A stretch of DNA of 48,701 bases from Bacteroidia bacterium (GTDB lineage: Bacteria > Bacteroidota > Bacteroidia > DATLTG01): NCBI GenBank assembly GCA_039924845.1, contig JBDTAC010000062.1:1-48701 (forward strand), written 5' to 3'. Shown here piece after piece: positions 13,125-43,732 of the stretch. The stretch's first letter is position 1. Every line of letters starts with the position of its first letter. Below the pieces are notes generated by a model. That model saw nothing but the letters and a program-made list of their open reading frames with translations, had not been told where the DNA came from and ran no database searches. A program made the translations under genes and the position numbers.

Positions 13125-13146
13125 TTTGAAAAAATAATTTTTCAAA
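13125..13146. repeat. AT-palindrome copy
   Basis: TTTGAAAAAATAATTTTTCAAA with perfectly paired TTTG/CAAA flanks, 8 bp after the stop of the TPM operon. Confidence 0.8.
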
Positions 13147-17334: not shown

Positions 17335-17350
17335 TTCTTTTAAATTAATT

Positions 17351-17552
17351 GCTTATCCAGAAAGGCTGAGGGACTGTGCCCGATGAAGCCTTGGCAACCC
17401 TTTTCTACTTTCGTAATTTTACGAAGGAATAAAAGAAGGTGCCAACTCCTGTTCCGTATTTTTTTACGGAAAACGATAAGTCGGAAAATAAAAAAGATTT
17501 AGAAATATTCATTTATCAAATCTCTTCCGACTTCCGGGAGAGATTTTTTTTT
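17351..17552 (+). promoter_or_regulatory. SAM-I riboswitch with terminator, metH leader
   Basis: The SAM-I (S-box) core is clear: GGCTGAGGGACTG...CCGATGAAGCC..GGCAACC, then AAGGTGCCAACTCC. P1 pairs CTTATC (17352-17357) with GATAAG (17475-17480). AAGTCGGAA (17478-17486) is complementary to TTCCGACTT (17525-17533) and forms the antiterminator. The terminator pairs AAATCTCT (17518-17525) with AGAGATTT (17539-17546) before nine T. SAM binding stabilises P1, frees the terminator and shuts off metH. Confidence 0.95.
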
Positions 17553-17606: not shown

Positions 17607-20600
17607 ATGAGTGATATACGAAAAGAACTCGAAAAAAAAATTTTAGTGATTGACGGTGCAATGGGCACTATGATTCAGCAATACAAGCTCGAAGAAAAAG
17701 AATATCGCGGGACACGTTTTGCCGATTTCCATAAAGATTTAAAAGGCAACAATGATTTGCTTTGTCTTACCCAACCCGTTATTATCAAAACCATTCATAA
17801 AGAATATTTAAAAGCTGGTGCAGATATTATTGAAACCAATACGTTCAACGCGCAAAAAATTTCTTTGGTAGATTACGACATGCAAGATTTAGCGTACGAA
17901 CTTAATTTCGAAGCCGCCAAAATTGCCAAACAAGCTGTTGCCGAATTTAATGCTGAAAATCCAACTCTCGCAACACCAAAATTTGTAGCAGGCGCCATCG
18001 GACCTACAAATCGCACCCTTTCACTTTCTCCTGATGTAAATGATCCAGGTTTTCGCGCTATTACTTGGGATGAATTAGTGGATGCGTACACCGAACAAAT
18101 TCGCGGACTTATTGATGGCGGTGCGGATTTGCTCCTCATCGAAACTATTTTTGATACCTTAAATGCAAAAGCCGCGCTTTTCGCGATACAAAATTATTGC
18201 GAAAAAATTAATCGCAAATTTCCAGTGATGGTTTCTGGAACTATTACAGATGCCAGTGGCAGAACGCTTTCTGGACAAACTACCGAAGCCTTTTTAAATT
18301 CTATTTCGCACGTTGATTTATTAAGCGTTGGTTTAAATTGCGCGCTGGGTGCGAAAGAAATGCGTCCGTACATTGAAGAGATGTCTGCAAAATCTCCTTT
18401 TTTTGTGAGTGCTTATCCCAATGCCGGTTTGCCGAATCAGTTTGGCGAATACGATCAAGATGCGCATCAAATGGGACATCAAATCGAAGATTTTTTGCAA
18501 TCCGGATTTTTAAATATTGTCGGTGGATGTTGCGGAACAACACCTGCTCACATTAAAGAAATCGCTGAACTTGCGAAAAAAGCAAAGCCACGCAAACCGG
18601 TTTCTGCGGATACTTTAATGCACCTCAGCGGCTTGGAACCAGTAACGTTGCGACCTGAAAGTAATTTTATGAATATCGGAGAACGCACCAATATCACTGG
18701 TTCTAAAAAATTCGCCAAACTAATTATTGATGGAAAATACGAAGATGCACTCGCTATCGCCAAAGATCAAGTAGACGGCGGCGCGCAGGTGATTGACATC
18801 AATATGGATGAAGGAATGTTGGACAGCGAAGCCGTGATGGTTAAATTTCTAAACCTAATTGGTTCTGAACCTGACATCTGTAAATTGCCCATTATGATTG
18901 ATTCTTCGAAATGGAATGTGATTGAAGCCGGATTAAAATGTGTACAAGGAAAAGCGATTGTCAATTCTATTTCGATGAAAGAAGGCGAAGATATATTTCG
19001 CGAACAAGCACGTAAAGTAAAAAAATACGGAGCTGCTGTAATCGTGATGGCATTTGACGAAGCGGGACAAGCTGATACCTTACAAAGACGTATTGATATT
19101 TGCAAACGCGCTTATGATATTTTAGTAAACGAAGTAAAATTTACGCCACAAGATATTATTTTCGATCCTAATATTTTTCCCGTTGCAACGGGAATGGACG
19201 AACATCGCAGAAATGCCATTGATTATTTTGAAGCTACAAAATGGATTAAAAAAAATCTTCCATTCGCGAAAGTAAGCGGAGGCGTTAGCAATGTTTCTTT
19301 TTCTTTTCGCGGAAACGATACCGTTCGCGAAGCCATTCACTCCGCATTTTTATATCACGGCATCAAAGCCGGAATGGATATGGGAATTGTGAATCCAGGA
19401 ATGTTGCAAGTGTATGATGATATTCCGAAAGAATTATTGGATTTAGTAGAAGACGTTTTACTTGATCGTCGCGAAGACGCTACTGAACGATTACTTGTTC
19501 ATGCAGAAACATTGAAAAATGTCGGAATACAAAAATCTGTAAAAGATGAAGAATGGCGAAAAGCTCCAGTAGAAGAGCGTTTATCGCACGCATTGGTAAA
19601 AGGAATTGTTGATTTTATTGAAGCAGATACCGAAGAGGCCAGAAATAAATTTCCGCAAGCTTTACACGTAATTGAAGGTCCGCTGATGGACGGAATGAAC
19701 ATTGTGGGCGATTTATTCGGCAGCGGGAAAATGTTTTTGCCGCAAGTGGTAAAAAGTGCGCGCGTTATGAAAAAAGCAGTTGCGTATTTATTACCATTTA
19801 TGGAAGAAGAAAAACGCAAAAATGGAACAGTTGCAAAAAACAATGGAAAAATTTTAATGGCGACTGTTAAAGGCGATGTTCACGACATCGGAAAAAATAT
19901 TGTAGGCGTTGTATTGGCTTGCAACAACTACGAAATTATTGATTTGGGCGTGATGGTTACTTGCGACAAAATATTAGACGAAGCGATAAAACAAAACGTG
20001 GACATTATCGGATTAAGCGGATTAATCACGCCATCTTTAGATGAAATGGTACACGTTGCAAAAGAAATGGAGCGACAAAAATTTACGATTCCTTTATTGA
20101 TTGGCGGAGCGACAACTTCGCGCGTTCATACTGCTGTAAAAATTGCTCCACATTATTCGCACGCTGTTGTTCACGTGAACGATGCGAGTAAATCGGTTCC
20201 CGCAGCTTCCAGTTTAATTTCCGAAATTTTACGTCCGGATTTTATGAAAAAAATTAATGCCGATTATGCACATGTCCGCGAACAAAATAAAAATGCACAA
20301 TCTGCCAATAAATTTATTTCCTTGGAAGAAGCTCGAAAAAATAATTTTCCGGTTGATTGGAATTCCACAAAAATTGCGAAGCCCACGTTTACTGGAAATA
20401 AAATTTTCATTGATTATCCCATCGCTGAAATTGCAACCTATATTGATTGGACACCATTTTTTCATGCTTGGGAAATGAAGGGTTCGTATCCTAAAATTTT
20501 TAATGATCCGACACGTGGCATCGAAGCAAAAAAATTATTTGACGATGCACAAAAAATGATACAGCGTATCATCAACGAAAAAATGTTGCAAGCAAATGCC

Positions 20601-21284
20601 GTTATCGGAATTTATCCTGCGAATGCAGTTGGAGATGATATTGAACTCATTAACAACGAAAACGAAAAAATATTTTTTCACACACTTCGTCAGCAAACAA
20701 AAAAGCCTGCAGGACAATACAATGTAGCTTTATCAGATTTTATTTTACCGAAAAATACCTCTTCTAATACAACAGATTATTTGGGAGGTTTCGCGGTTAC
20801 GGCAGGAATCGGGATTGAAAAATGGTTAGAAAAATTTGCAAAAGATTTTGACGATTATTCTTCTATTATGTTGAAAGCTCTTGCAGATAGGCTTGCAGAA
20901 GCATTTGCAGAATTGATGCACAAAAAAGTGCGGAAAGAATTTTGGGGATATGCGAAAGAAGAAAATTTATCAAACGATCAATTGATAAAAGAAGAATATG
21001 CCGGAATTCGTCCGGCTCCTGGCTATCCTGCGCAACCTGATCATACTGAAAAAATTGAATTGTTTAATTTATTAGATGCCGAAAAAAATGTCGGAATTAT
21101 TCTTACTGAAGGTTTGGCAATGGTTCCCACAGCGGCTGTCAGCGGATTGTATTTAGCACATCCACAAGCACATTATTTCGGACTTGGAAAAATTACCAAA
21201 GAACAAGTGAAAGATTATGCGAAACGAAAATCAATGAGTGTAGAAGAAACAGAACGTTGGCTGGGTTCGAGCTTGGGATATTGA
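17607..21284 (+). CDS. metH: Cobalamin-dependent methionine synthase MetH
   Basis: The protein (1225 aa) is full length with all four modules. The homocysteine domain (1 to about 330) has zinc cysteines in GLNC and GGCCGTT. The pterin domain (about 350-620) begins [16 protein letters not shown]. The B12 domain has GDVHDIGKN with the cobalt-ligand His759. The C-terminal activation domain contains [12 protein letters not shown]. It makes methionine from homocysteine and methyl-tetrahydrofolate. Two AT-palindrome variants lie within the gene at 20334-20352 (KNNF) and 20665-20682 (EKIFF). It is controlled by the SAM riboswitch upstream. Confidence 0.98.
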
Positions 21285-22540: not shown

Positions 22541-22564
22541 GTTTTAAAAAATTATTTTTTCAAC
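22541..22564. repeat. AT-palindrome copy spanning a stop codon
   Basis: GTTTTAAAAAATTATTTTTT plus CAAC. It contains the DUF1800 stop and sits between two co-transcribed genes. Confidence 0.7.
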
Positions 22565-23954
22565 ACAGCTGATATTGCGGTGTAGAAAGCAATTGAATGG
22601 TAATGTCTTTTATTTTTTCTTTTGAAAATGGATCCAATAATTGTTCCATATTTTTTGATAAATCTGGCATTAAAATAAAAGCGATTAATTCTTTTTGAGA
22701 AATATTCGCAGGAAGCGTATTTAAAAAACTGTTCCAATCCACTATTGTTTGGACCTTTTTCTGCACTTTTTGTTGAATTTTATGCTCTTGTTCCATCATC
22801 ATCATAAAATCTTCGGGCATATCATTTTTCACTTCCATATTAATGATACCGGAGTTTAAAACAATAGAAGCCAATTTTATTCGGAACATTAACGACGAAC
22901 TATCAATCCAACTTTTTCCGCCTTTCCAACCGCTCACATTGGGCGGATAAAACAATACTTGTCCGAGTAAGCGCTGCATGTACAACAGCACTTTCGGATC
23001 TTGATACATCACAGAAAATAATTTATTGGTGCCTACAATTAACTCTGTCGGAGATTTTATTTTCGTTCCTACATTTTGCCTTTCGTAAAACCAATTCGAC
23101 GAAAAAATATTTTTCAGCAAGCTTCCAATATCGTATCCAGAATTAAAAAAAGATTCCGAAAGCTCCGTTACGCGGCTTTCATCCACGTCATCATTTACTA
23201 AAAAGGCATATATTTTTTTGGTGATAAAATGTGCCGTTTGTATTTGTTGCAAAATAATTCCCAAGATATCATCGCCGTTAAAATTGCCGGTTTTGCCCAT
23301 AAATGTTTTACTTCCGTCGTCGTGAATTCTTTCCACAAACTCAAATTGTCCATCTTTATTAAATCTCCAACCAGTATACGCTCTGGCGGATTCACGAATA
23401 TCTTGTTCCGAATAGTTGTCTCTGCCGATGGTAAATAATTCCATTACTTCGCGCGCAAAATTTTCGTTTGGATGATCTTTTTTATTTTGTTGATTGTTCA
23501 AGAACTGAAGCATCGCAGGCGATTTAGAAACTTCCGACAACATTTTTTTGAAATCTCCTAAAGCATTTGCGCGTAAAATATTGTTGAGATCTTGTAAAAA
23601 AAGCGGATTGTCAATTCTACAAGCAAAATGTCCGTGCCAAAACAAGGTCATTTTTTCGCGCAATTGCGCATTGTCGTTGGCCATTTTTAAGAACCAAGTG
23701 GTATTTAGTTCTTGTACCTTTTCGCGAAGCTGTTTTTTAAATTCTTTTTTTTCTTCTCCTTTTAAATCTTTGATTTTTTTCTTCGTCATATCTTCATCAA
23801 CCACTGACAAATTGCTGTAATTAGCGGAATCATCAAAAAGTTGTTGAATATTTTTTTCGATGGAATTTTCAGAAAAACGTTGCCACGATTTATAATCGAT
23901 GCCAAATCCTGCACGCGCATATAAATGGAGAATTTTTTTTTGAGCTTGCGACAT
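22560..23954 (-). CDS. DUF1800 protein
   Basis: I choose the ATG read from 23954 (464 aa), because the longer frame begins in repeat sequence. HLYARAGFG near the start, LFWHGHFACR, NQQNKKDHPNENFAREVMELFTIG and YPPNVSGWKGG are DUF1800 hallmarks. It is encoded upstream of DUF1501 in a two-gene operon. Its function is unknown, and exported polymer or carbohydrate roles have been suggested only by context. A palindrome variant at 23098-23116 encodes part of LKNIFSSN. Confidence 0.93.
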   Translation of the reverse strand: MSQAQKKILHLYARAGFGIDYKSWQRFSENSIEKNIQQLFDDSANYSNLSVVDEDMTKKKIKDLKGEEKKEFKKQLREKVQELNTTWFLKMANDNAQLREKMTLFWHGHFACRIDNPLFLQDLNNILRANALGDFKKMLSEVSKSPAMLQFLNNQQNKKDHPNENFAREVMELFTIGRDNYSEQDIRESARAYTGWRFNKDGQFEFVERIHDDGSKTFMGKTGNFNGDDILGIILQQIQTAHFITKKIYAFLVNDDVDESRVTELSESFFNSGYDIGSLLKNIFSSNWFYERQNVGTKIKSPTELIVGTNKLFSVMYQDPKVLLYMQRLLGQVLFYPPNVSGWKGGKSWIDSSSLMFRIKLASIVLNSGIINMEVKNDMPEDFMMMMEQEHKIQQKVQKKVQTIVDWNSFLNTLPANISQKELIAFILMPDLSKNMEQLLDPFSKEKIKDITIQLLSTPQYQLC

Positions 23955-24022: not shown

Positions 24023-24044
24023 TTTGAAAAATTAATTTTTCAAA
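24023..24044. repeat. Perfect 22-bp AT palindrome
   Basis: TTTG/CAAA arms around AAAAATTAATTTTT. It lies in the 23955-24322 divergent spacer. Confidence 0.8.
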
Positions 24045-24082: not shown

Positions 24083-24090
24083 TACATTTG
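24083..24090 (+). promoter_or_regulatory. TAnnTTTG -7 box
   Basis: TACATTTG lies about 230 nt upstream of the PAS-SpoIIE gene and directly before the structured leader. No clear -33 element. Confidence 0.45.
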
Positions 24091-24322
24091 TCGCTGAAGC
24101 GATGGAAATTTATTTTCAAAAATCGCTCCAAAAATAATAATGGCAAATATAATAACATACGTTATTTCTTATGTTTCTCCGATGCACTCAAGCATTGGAA
24201 TGCGCCATTGTATGCATAATAGAAAGCGATTTACGAATTGCATTTCTATTAACAGATAAAAAATCTGTAAAACAAAATTTCCCTTTTTTATTCATCCAAT
24301 TTTTCTTCAAAAAATTATTTTT
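24091..24322 (+). promoter_or_regulatory. Possible structured leader RNA
   Basis: AAATCGCT (24120-24127) can pair with AGCGATTT (24225-24232), or ATCGCT with AGCGAT (24098-24103); TCGCT (24091-24095) can also pair with AGCGA (24098-24102). Inside are two mutually exclusive hairpins (ATAAC/GTTAT 24152-24165 and AACATA/TATGTT 24154-24175). ATGCA/TGCAT (24182-24186/24213-24217) encloses GCATT-GG-AATGC. ACAGAT/ATCTGT follows at 24252-24268. I recognise no known riboswitch class. An AT palindrome at 24305-24322 ends at the start codon. Confidence 0.4.
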
Positions 24323-25483: not shown

Positions 25484-25525
25484 AAAAAAGATGTTTGAAA
25501 AATTAATTTTTCAAACATCTTTTTT
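25484..25525. terminator. Perfect 42-bp palindrome, bidirectional terminator
   Basis: Six A, then GATGTTTG, then the core AAAAATTAATTTTT, then CAAACATC and six T form a perfect palindrome centred at 25504.5. It lies 4 bp after the phosphatase stop and 15 bp before the convergent aminotransferase stop, so it could terminate both. Confidence 0.8.
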
Positions 25526-41823: not shown

Positions 41824-41896
41824 CACGGGTGGAGAGACTCGAACTCCCAGCCAATGGTTTTGGAGACCACTACTCTACCAATTGAGCTACACCCGT
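41824..41896 (-). tRNA. tRNA-Trp (CCA)
   Basis: It folds as a full cloverleaf of 73 nt with anticodon CCA, a GTTCGAG-type T-loop and discriminator G. No 3' CCA is encoded. It lies between tuf and secE, a typical Bacteroidota arrangement. Confidence 0.97.
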
Positions 41897-41900
41897 ATTC

Positions 41901-41958
41901 GTTAGCAATTGGCAGCAGGCAACCGCATTGTAGCGGTTGCCAACTGGAAACTGTTAAC
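41901..41958. repeat. 58-bp imperfect palindrome between tuf and tRNA-Trp
   Basis: The core GGCAACCGC-ATTGTA-GCGGTTGCC is perfect. The outer arms pair in blocks (GTTA, CA, TT, CAG), giving a long bulged hairpin. There is no U-run, so RNA processing or a dispersed repeat is likelier than termination. Confidence 0.65.
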
Positions 41959-43152
41959 TTATTTTATAATTGAAATTACTTGTCCTGCACCTACTGTTCT
42001 TCCACCTTCACGGATAGCGAAACGCAATCCTTTATCCATCGCAACAGGTACAATCAATTTCACGGTAATTGTAACGTTATCACCAGGCATAACCATTTCA
42101 CGTCCTTCCGGAAGTGTAATTTCCCCCGTAACATCTGTTGTTCTCAAATAAAATTGAGGACGATATTTGTTATGGAATGGAGTATGACGGCCACCTTCTT
42201 CTTTTTTCAATACATAAATCTCTGCTGTAAATTCAGTGTGAGGAGTGATAGAACCAGGTTTAGCAACAACCATACCTCTTCTGATATCTTTTTTATCAAT
42301 ACCTCTCAACAATAAACCAACGTTATCTCCAGCTTCACCTCTGTCCAATATTTTACGGAACATCTCAACACCTGTAATGGTTGATTTAAGTTTTGTTTCT
42401 TGCTCTTGCATACCGATGATTTCAACATCTTCTCCAGAGTTGATAACACCTGTTTCAATTCTTCCTGTTGCAACAGTACCACGACCAGTGATAGAGAATA
42501 CATCCTCTACTGGCATCAAAAAGTTTTTATCAATTTGACGAACTGGAATTGGAATAAAAGAATCCACCGCATCCATCAATTCCATAATTTTTTCTACCCA
42601 TTTTGCATCACCATTCAAACCACCCAAAGCAGAACCTCTGATGATAGGAATTTTAGCTCCGTCAAAATTATAGAAACTCAATAATTCGCGAATTTCCATT
42701 TCAACTAAATCCAACAATTCAGGATCATCCACCATATCCACTTTGTTCATAAACACAACAATTTGTGGAACGCCTACTTGACGAGCCAAAAGAATGTGTT
42801 CACGTGTTTGTGGCATCGGACCATCCGTAGCAGCAACAACTAATATAGCACCGTCCATTTGAGCAGCACCTGTAACCATGTTTTTCACATAATCCGCGTG
42901 ACCTGGACAATCAACGTGCGCATAGTGGCGATTCGCGGTAGAATATTCTACGTGAGATGTATTAATAGTAATACCTCTTTCTTTTTCCTCAGGAGCATTA
43001 TCGATAGAATCGAACGATCTTTTTTCTGACAATCCCTTACTAGCTAATACTGTTGTAATAGCAGCAGTTAAGGTTGTTTTACCGTGGTCAACGTGACCAA
43101 TAGTTCCGATGTTTACGTGTGGTTTGGAACGATCAAATTTTTCTTTAGCCAT
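41959..43152 (-). CDS. tuf: Elongation factor Tu
   Basis: The protein (397 aa) has GTP-binding motifs GHVDHGKT (19-26), DCPGHADY and NKVD, and the three-domain layout. It delivers aminoacyl-tRNA to the ribosome. It sits in a tRNA-flanked locus: four tRNAs upstream, tRNA-Trp downstream, matching the tufB-type arrangement. Confidence 0.98.
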
Positions 43153-43229
43153 AGCTATATTGGGTTTTTAAATTTATTGTTATTATTTATTTATTACTAA
43201 TATTTCACTTTCATTCACTTCTGAAGCAG

Positions 43230-43301
<72 letters not shown>

Positions 43302-43370
43302 TTTTTATTTTGCCGTTCTAACTTTTCATCTTTCAAAAGAGCGTTTACCTCGTCCTCAATTATCTTTAAG

Positions 43371-43443
43371 AGCAGAAGACCGGGCTCGAACCGGCCACCC
43401 TCAGCTTGGAAGGCTGACGCTCTACCAAATGAGCTACTTCTGC
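43371..43443 (-). tRNA. tRNA-Gly (UCC)
   Basis: A 73-nt cloverleaf with anticodon TCC in the loop CTTCCAA and acceptor GCAGAAG/CTTCTGC. CCA is not encoded. Confidence 0.96.
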
Positions 43444-43500
43444 TTAATTTTTTTTAATCTTTTAAAAATCTCAATGAACGTTATTCTTCTTCTATTTTTT

Positions 43501-43528
43501 AGTCTTGAAAAATTAATTTTTCAAGACT
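43501..43528. repeat. Perfect 28-bp AT palindrome between tRNA genes
   Basis: AGTCTTG/CAAGACT arms around AAAAATTAATTTTT, followed by eight T. It lies between tRNA-Tyr and tRNA-Gly, where a full terminator would cut the tuf operon. Confidence 0.8.
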
Positions 43529-43551
43529 TTTTTTTCTATAATAGTTGTTTG

Positions 43552-43634
43552 TGGGGAGAGAAGGATTCGAACCTTCGAAGTCGTAAAACAACAGAGTTAC
43601 AGTCTGTCCCATTTGGCCACTCTGGTATCTCCCC
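43552..43634 (-). tRNA. tRNA-Tyr (GUA)
   Basis: An 83-nt class II tRNA with anticodon GTA and the long variable arm expected for Tyr. Acceptor GGGGAGA/TCTCCCC is perfect. Confidence 0.96.
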
Positions 43635-43658
43635 TGCCAAATTCACATTACATTATAG

Positions 43659-43732
43659 AGCCGATGGAGGGATTCGAACCCCCGACCAGCTGATTACAAA
43701 TCAGCTGCTCTGGCCAGCTGAGCTACATCGGC
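43659..43732 (-). tRNA. tRNA-Thr (UGU)
   Basis: A 74-nt cloverleaf with anticodon TGT in the loop TTTGTAA and perfect acceptor GCCGATG/CATCGGC. It is the first gene of the Thr-Tyr-Gly-Thr-tuf run. Confidence 0.96.

Follow-up and report, generated by a model that had tools for sequence, protein, structure and literature searches.

The leader peptide TnaC of the Escherichia coli tna operon is arrested at its own stop codon, which keeps Rho from loading on the site that follows (PMC8429421). TnaC and the ornithine sensor SpeFL are each encoded by a short upstream open reading frame (uORF) ahead of one gene or operon. A different arrangement is found in toiL, upstream of E. coli topAI, in which stalling anywhere in the uORF refolds the leader and opens the downstream start (PMC12121999). 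Amino-acid attenuators of the trp, his and leu type have a leader peptide, hairpins that follow it and a single regulated transcript, and a flavobacterium is reported to regulate amino-acid operons, not signalling genes, by leader-peptide attenuation (PMC9723704). Here we report the analysis of a 48,701-nucleotide (nt) stretch of DNA from a Bacteroidia bacterium (hereafter referred to as the window), in which 232 nt (24091–24322) lie directly upstream of a PAS–SpoIIE phosphatase gene. Control of SpoIIE-type signalling phosphatases is usually attributed to their own sensor domains. The 232-nt stretch is likely to be the 5′ leader of the phosphatase mRNA, with a short ORF as its working part, and we think it probable that this leader and its relatives form a new family of regulatory leader peptides, working like TnaC or toiL. 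A conserved translated leader ahead of a SpoIIE phosphatase would tie ribosome status to a signalling switch.

The leader resembles TnaC and SpeFL in its short uORF (23–45 codons among the leaders studied here, 24 in TnaC) upstream of one gene, in the spacer after the uORF stop codon and in the peptide-based sensing that we propose. It differs from both in having no recognized sequence similarity to them and in its target, a signalling phosphatase rather than a catabolic or decarboxylase gene, and from TnaC in that the peptide varies freely in sequence while its composition is kept. With toiL it shares a structured leader containing a uORF, in which the position of the ribosome is thought to decide the fold; however, phylum and target differ, and the leaders showed no conserved pairing that covers the phosphatase start. 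Unlike the amino-acid attenuators, whose general layout it shares, the leader precedes a non-biosynthetic gene, and both classical attenuator features, a run of codons for one amino acid and a terminator with a U-run and an antiterminator, were not found in the leaders. Like the Rfam cis-regulatory families of Bacteroidota, such as the SAM riboswitch, it is a cis-acting leader before one gene, but no Rfam model attained the gathering score in it or in 16 relatives, and looser thresholds yielded no credible match either. The leader is without a match in Rfam, Pfam or NCBIfam and is previously undescribed; the openly licensed full texts that were searched contained no account of a leader of this kind ahead of a SpoIIE phosphatase. 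The initial annotation, which had suggested a regulatory leader of no known class at this position, is supported in this respect, and the leader is conserved across many families.

The components of the locus are listed in Table 1. The box that had been noted ahead of the leader, TACATTTG, is present, and we take it to be a putative promoter from established knowledge of Bacteroidota promoters; no clear −33 element accompanies it. The uORF of the window begins 49 nt from this box, and the interval contains a stretch that is absent from close relatives and a mini-ORF whose distance from the box is about that usual for the uORF. The extra 32 nt and the mini-ORF could alter initiation at the uORF of the window.

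Table 1 Positions of the leader components and neighbouring genes in the window
Feature	Position	Strand	Evidence or remark
DUF1800 gene, divergent, on the other side of the leader	22560–23954	−	
Promoter −7 box, Bacteroidota type (TAnnTTTG): TACATTTG	24083–24090	+	Recurs ahead of uORFs in relatives
Window-specific stretch, about 32 nt, between box and uORF	24096–24128	+	Absent from close relatives (alignment A1)
Mini-ORF, 11 codons, MEIYFQKSLQK-stop	24102–24137	+	Window-specific, ahead of the conserved uORF
Stem A: 24137–24144 (ATAATGGC) with 24204–24211 (GCCATTGT)	24137–24211	+	Minimum free energy (MFE) fold; start-region stem in folds of relatives
Conserved uORF (candidate leader peptide), 39 amino acids, MANIITYVISYVSPMHSSIGMRHCMHNRKRFTNCISINR-stop	24140–24259	+	Counterpart in 45 of 46 orthologous leaders
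Hairpin B, TCCGATGC/GCATTGGA, within the uORF	24178–24199	+	Covariation in alignment A4; alifold pair probability up to 1.0
Hairpin C, TAATAGAAAGCGATT/AATTGCATTTCTATTA, within the uORF	24217–24251	+	Inner part covaries in alignment A4
Hairpin D, ACAGAT/ATCTGT, flanking the uORF stop codon	24252–24268	+	MFE fold; similar hairpins in several close relatives
G-poor spacer, uORF stop to phosphatase start, 63 nt	24260–24322	+	Base composition across leaders
PAS–SpoIIE (PP2C-type) phosphatase gene, 385 amino acids	24323–25480	+	Pfam SpoIIE 1.6e-21, PAS_9 9e-10; orthologues class-wide

Other families of the class carry orthologues of the phosphatase, with identities from 79% down to 42%, whose upstream regions share one order of elements: a TAnnTTTG box, usually 15–19 nt, a start codon, an ORF of 23–45 codons, a spacer and the phosphatase start. 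This box–uORF–spacer–phosphatase architecture was found in 45 of the 46 orthologues with usable upstream DNA, representing eight families in an uneven phylogeny, so that the sequence counts given here do not equal independent events. In the lone exception (L058), another gene extends up to the phosphatase start. TTG and GTG each serve as the start codon in two of the 45 uORFs, and TAnnTTTG or a near form lies 5′ of the uORF in 42 leaders, mostly 15–19 nt from the ATG. A suitable ORF is present in 33 of the 36 leaders with a near box, whereas 200 shuffles gave 2.9 on average and 7 at most, and for an ORF free of acidic residues the contrast is greater (32 of these 36 leaders, as opposed to 1.1 in shuffles). 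The position of the short ORF in the 5′ leader is therefore conserved together with the downstream gene, as is characteristic of a regulatory uORF. Few other box-driven short ORFs of similar composition emerged from a scan of the loci examined. A search of genome contigs with the phosphatase returned no close relative, and comparison of the leader DNA with other genomes gave short AT-rich matches only.

The encoded peptides have an unusual composition. Asp and Glu together account for 3 of 1234 uORF codons, as compared with 58 expected from base composition, which is a simple null. This avoidance is specific to one frame: Asp and Glu codons do occur in the other two frames and in the spacer, and GA dinucleotides are found 3, 56 and 70 times at codon positions 1–2, 2–3 and 3–1 of the uORFs, respectively. 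In that frame only, Met (4.1-fold), Trp (2.8-fold) and Cys (1.7-fold), as well as Ile, Asn, His and Arg, are enriched, while Leu, Val and Ala are depleted. The peptides are also polar in their arrangement, with Ile, Thr, Ser and Asn early, Met, Cys, Trp and His in the middle, and Arg and Ile at the end. Of 41 peptides, 24 end in Arg or Lys, these being concentrated in three families (f1, f20 and f33), and 24 have Ile or Leu at position −3. Synonymous changes exceed the neutral expectation clearly in the g114/33 group (54 versus 25.5), moderately in g191 (27 versus 18.6) and weakly in g20 (70 versus 58.4), indicating that the uORF sequence is only loosely constrained. From the loss of GAN codons in a single frame and the synonymous excess in two of the three groups, we infer that the uORF is translated.

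These features bear on what the peptide may do. One reading, a more specific form of the leader-peptide explanation, is that the uORF senses a general shortage of charged tRNA: codons for the scarce residues Met, Trp, Cys and His would slow the ribosome as amino acids become limiting, which amounts to classical attenuation distributed over many amino acids. The enrichment of residues correlates negatively with their frequency in the proteins of the window (Spearman −0.58, p 0.007), the common residues Asp, Glu, Ala, Val, Leu and Lys being depleted and Cys, His, Trp and Met enriched. However, the near-total loss of Asp and Glu far exceeds that of the other common residues, the enrichment of Cys and Trp–His is partly due to the pairing of stem A with the start region, and neither a terminator–antiterminator pair nor, by eye in the 45 peptides, a long run of one amino acid was found; we regard this reading as possible but less likely than not. 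Alternatively, the ORF product could be a small protein acting in trans, the phosphatase and the membrane being two conceivable sites of action, and some purifying selection on the ORF and the hydrophobic first half and basic end of some g20 peptides are in line with this. Yet the peptides can barely be aligned across families, many have no hydrophobic stretch, and none matches Pfam or NCBIfam, making a function in trans improbable. A transmembrane small protein was rejected, as most peptides lack a hydrophobic stretch.

Between families, then, the peptide sequence is poorly conserved while its composition is kept, and a uORF conserved in this manner would be missed by sequence-based uORF searches. 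The acid-free peptide rich in Met, Cys, Trp and His, with its frequent C-terminal Arg or Lys, suggests that sensing occurs through arrest of the nascent chain or slow decoding, although the C-terminal Arg or Lys (24 of 41) is only suggestive as a sign of arrest at the stop codon. A more far-reaching possibility, which we consider less likely than not, is that the leaders constitute a new class of nascent-peptide sensors in Bacteroidota, in which the peptide sequence drifts, its chemistry (acid-free, with Met, Cys, Trp and His in the middle and end and often Arg or Lys ahead of the stop codon) is maintained across families, and many inputs that slow the ribosome, either general stress on translation or a tunnel-binding metabolite, are wired directly to a PAS–SpoIIE partner-switching phosphatase.

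The leader of the window is strongly folded on the + strand (−51.2 kcal/mol, z −4.80, with none of 200 shuffles as low), while the minus strand folds less markedly (z −2.09); the median z values over 43 leaders are −2.4 and −1.2, respectively. In the window and its f20 relatives, stem A joins the uORF start region to codons 22–25 and encloses hairpin B, and in the predicted fold it would keep the uORF start codon inaccessible as long as the RNA is unbound. In alignment A4, of close relatives, stem A is paired in 67% of cells, with changes on both sides in two of its nine pairs, and is weaker than hairpin B (82%, four of nine pairs) and the inner part of hairpin C (82%, four of eight pairs). 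The covariation model that was counted, comprising A, B and C and leaving out hairpin D, has 76.9% of cells paired and 20 cells changed on both sides, as compared with 8.6 in shuffled controls and 3–8 when the partners were slid. Its covariation score exceeds those of all 500 shuffles, mostly owing to B and C. The hairpins vary by lineage: distant families retain the uORF with little structure, and in one such family (f41) the leaders are short and weakly folded.

In the initial annotation, the leader was read as a possible riboswitch with mutually exclusive folds, which would make it a metabolite-binding RNA with an incidental ORF. All of the competing segments can be located, namely TCGCT (24091 and 24123), AGCGA (24098 and 24225), ATCGCT (24122), AAATCGCT (24120) and AGCGATTT (24225), and the pairs ATAAC/GTTAT (24152/24161), AACATA/TATGTT (24154/24170) and GCATT/AATGC (24192/24199). 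Perfect inverted repeats of this kind are, however, no more frequent than in shuffled sequence, with 85 against 80.6 ± 14.4 at 5 bp, 25 against 26 at 6 bp and 4 against 2.8 at 8 bp, so mutually exclusive stems are uninformative here. The TCGCT/AGCGAT/ATCGCT set is not conserved, being built on the stretch of about 32 nt that is missing in relatives and holds one of its arms; furthermore, its first stem starts right after the box, close to the transcript start expected in Bacteroidota, and its 5′ arm may lie outside the RNA. Of the noted elements, GCATT overlaps the conserved hairpin B and GCGATTT the conserved hairpin C. The covariance modelling that had been recommended supported hairpins B and C, as described above, but no conserved exclusive folds: the alifold ensemble of close relatives contains no well-supported competing helix, its strong elements being the local hairpins B and C only. 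The strong + strand fold and the covarying hairpins would suit a riboswitch. By contrast, Rfam matches are absent in the window and in relatives, the noted stems occur at chance level and depend on window-specific DNA, the element most widely kept is the short ORF rather than any structure, which changes between families and includes no conserved aptamer with conserved exclusive folds, and the frame-specific residue bias marks the ORF as translated. A riboswitch is therefore very unlikely.

Between the uORF stop codon and the phosphatase start, spacers measure 38–166 nt in relatives, mostly 46–100 nt. Across leaders they contain 18.8% C and 9.2% G, as compared with 15.5% and 13.5% in the start regions upstream of other genes at the same loci (p 2e-9). 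This excess of C over G after the uORF would fit a Rho site as in TnaC, as a compositional comparison rather than a site test, and the low G content could also be an ordinary trait of weakly structured start regions. No conserved canonical intrinsic terminator was found in the leader; the hairpins after the stop codon are short, and in most leaders the U-run is displaced or missing. The spacer length also bears on the possibility that the uORF tunes translation passively, through reinitiation or as an initiation 'antenna', with no sensing. Short leader genes are common and have been proposed to raise expression through reinitiation, for which the preferred distance in Bacteroidetes is 11–14 nt (PMC4833913). 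The spacers are mostly much longer than this, and passive tuning leaves the acid-free, Met-, Cys-, Trp- and His-rich peptides and the covarying hairpins unexplained; we consider it unlikely.

Taken as a regulatory leader peptide, the uORF would act through the ribosome that translates it, by means of which the cell probably senses something, the progress or arrest of this ribosome setting phosphatase expression. During normal translation, the ribosome would finish and leave, exposing the structured leader and the C-rich, G-poor spacer, and phosphatase expression would be low owing to Rho-dependent termination, poor initiation or both. A ribosome that is slowed or arrested, most likely in the C-terminal half of the uORF or at its stop codon, would instead shield the spacer or cause the hairpins to refold, and expression would rise. 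Candidates for the signal are a metabolite that binds in the tunnel, translation stress in general and a shortage of charged tRNA for rare amino acids; both the direction of control and the identity of the signal are guesses. Against the leader-peptide explanation counts the lack of a conserved competing helix or intrinsic terminator, so that the switch itself is not visible. Further points against it are the poor conservation of the peptide sequence between families, in which it differs from TnaC, the concentration of C-terminal Arg or Lys in three families, a genome of the model's genus that has the uORF but no match to the structural model, the weak folds of distant families, the extra DNA ahead of the uORF in the window and the ordinary reading of the G-poor spacer given above.

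A covariance model of the leader (R1) links the structure to the phosphatase gene. Within genus g20, 11 of the 36 genomes carry a phosphatase orthologue (E ≤ 1e-110), and ten of these have a strong R1 match (E ≤ 2e-13), in each case directly upstream of the phosphatase. In the remaining orthologue-bearing genome (G245), which belongs to the genus of the model, the uORF is present but the modelled structure is not matched. None of the other 25 genomes has a strong match, and one (G397) has a weak match (E 0.024). One of the strong matches, that of G019, lay outside the set from which the model was built, and the phosphatase start follows it at a contig end. The genome of the window contains one R1 copy, and its paralogous SpoIIE genes have no R1 match.

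The leader is a single-copy sequence and not a repeat; dispersed sequence is confined to a palindrome upstream of it and to its AT-rich 3′ end. The 22-nt AT-rich palindrome, TTTGAAAAATTAATTTTTCAAA, occurs at 24023–24044, 25494–25515, 13125–13146 and 12 more sites in the window (15 versus 0.09 expected), and the phosphatase gene lies between two perfect copies. Across the 2.66-Mb genome, when up to two mismatches are allowed, it is matched 543 times on the forward and 562 times on the reverse strand, corresponding to several hundred places since a palindromic site scores on both strands, whereas the reversed control has none. Some copies form tandem arrays (L044), and the palindrome may be a binding site or an element of the REP type. 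This dispersed AT-rich motif is resembled by the final 25 nt of the spacer (AATTTTTCTTCAAAAAATTATTTTT, 24298–24322), just ahead of the phosphatase gene, and exact 18-nt copies from them are present at many genome sites. Elsewhere in the window, a SAM riboswitch (RF00162, 80 bits) at 17350–17482 lies directly 5′ of a metH-like gene (17607–21284), and five tRNA genes recognized by the Rfam tRNA model, four of them within about 500 nt, are located on the minus strand at 41824–43732.
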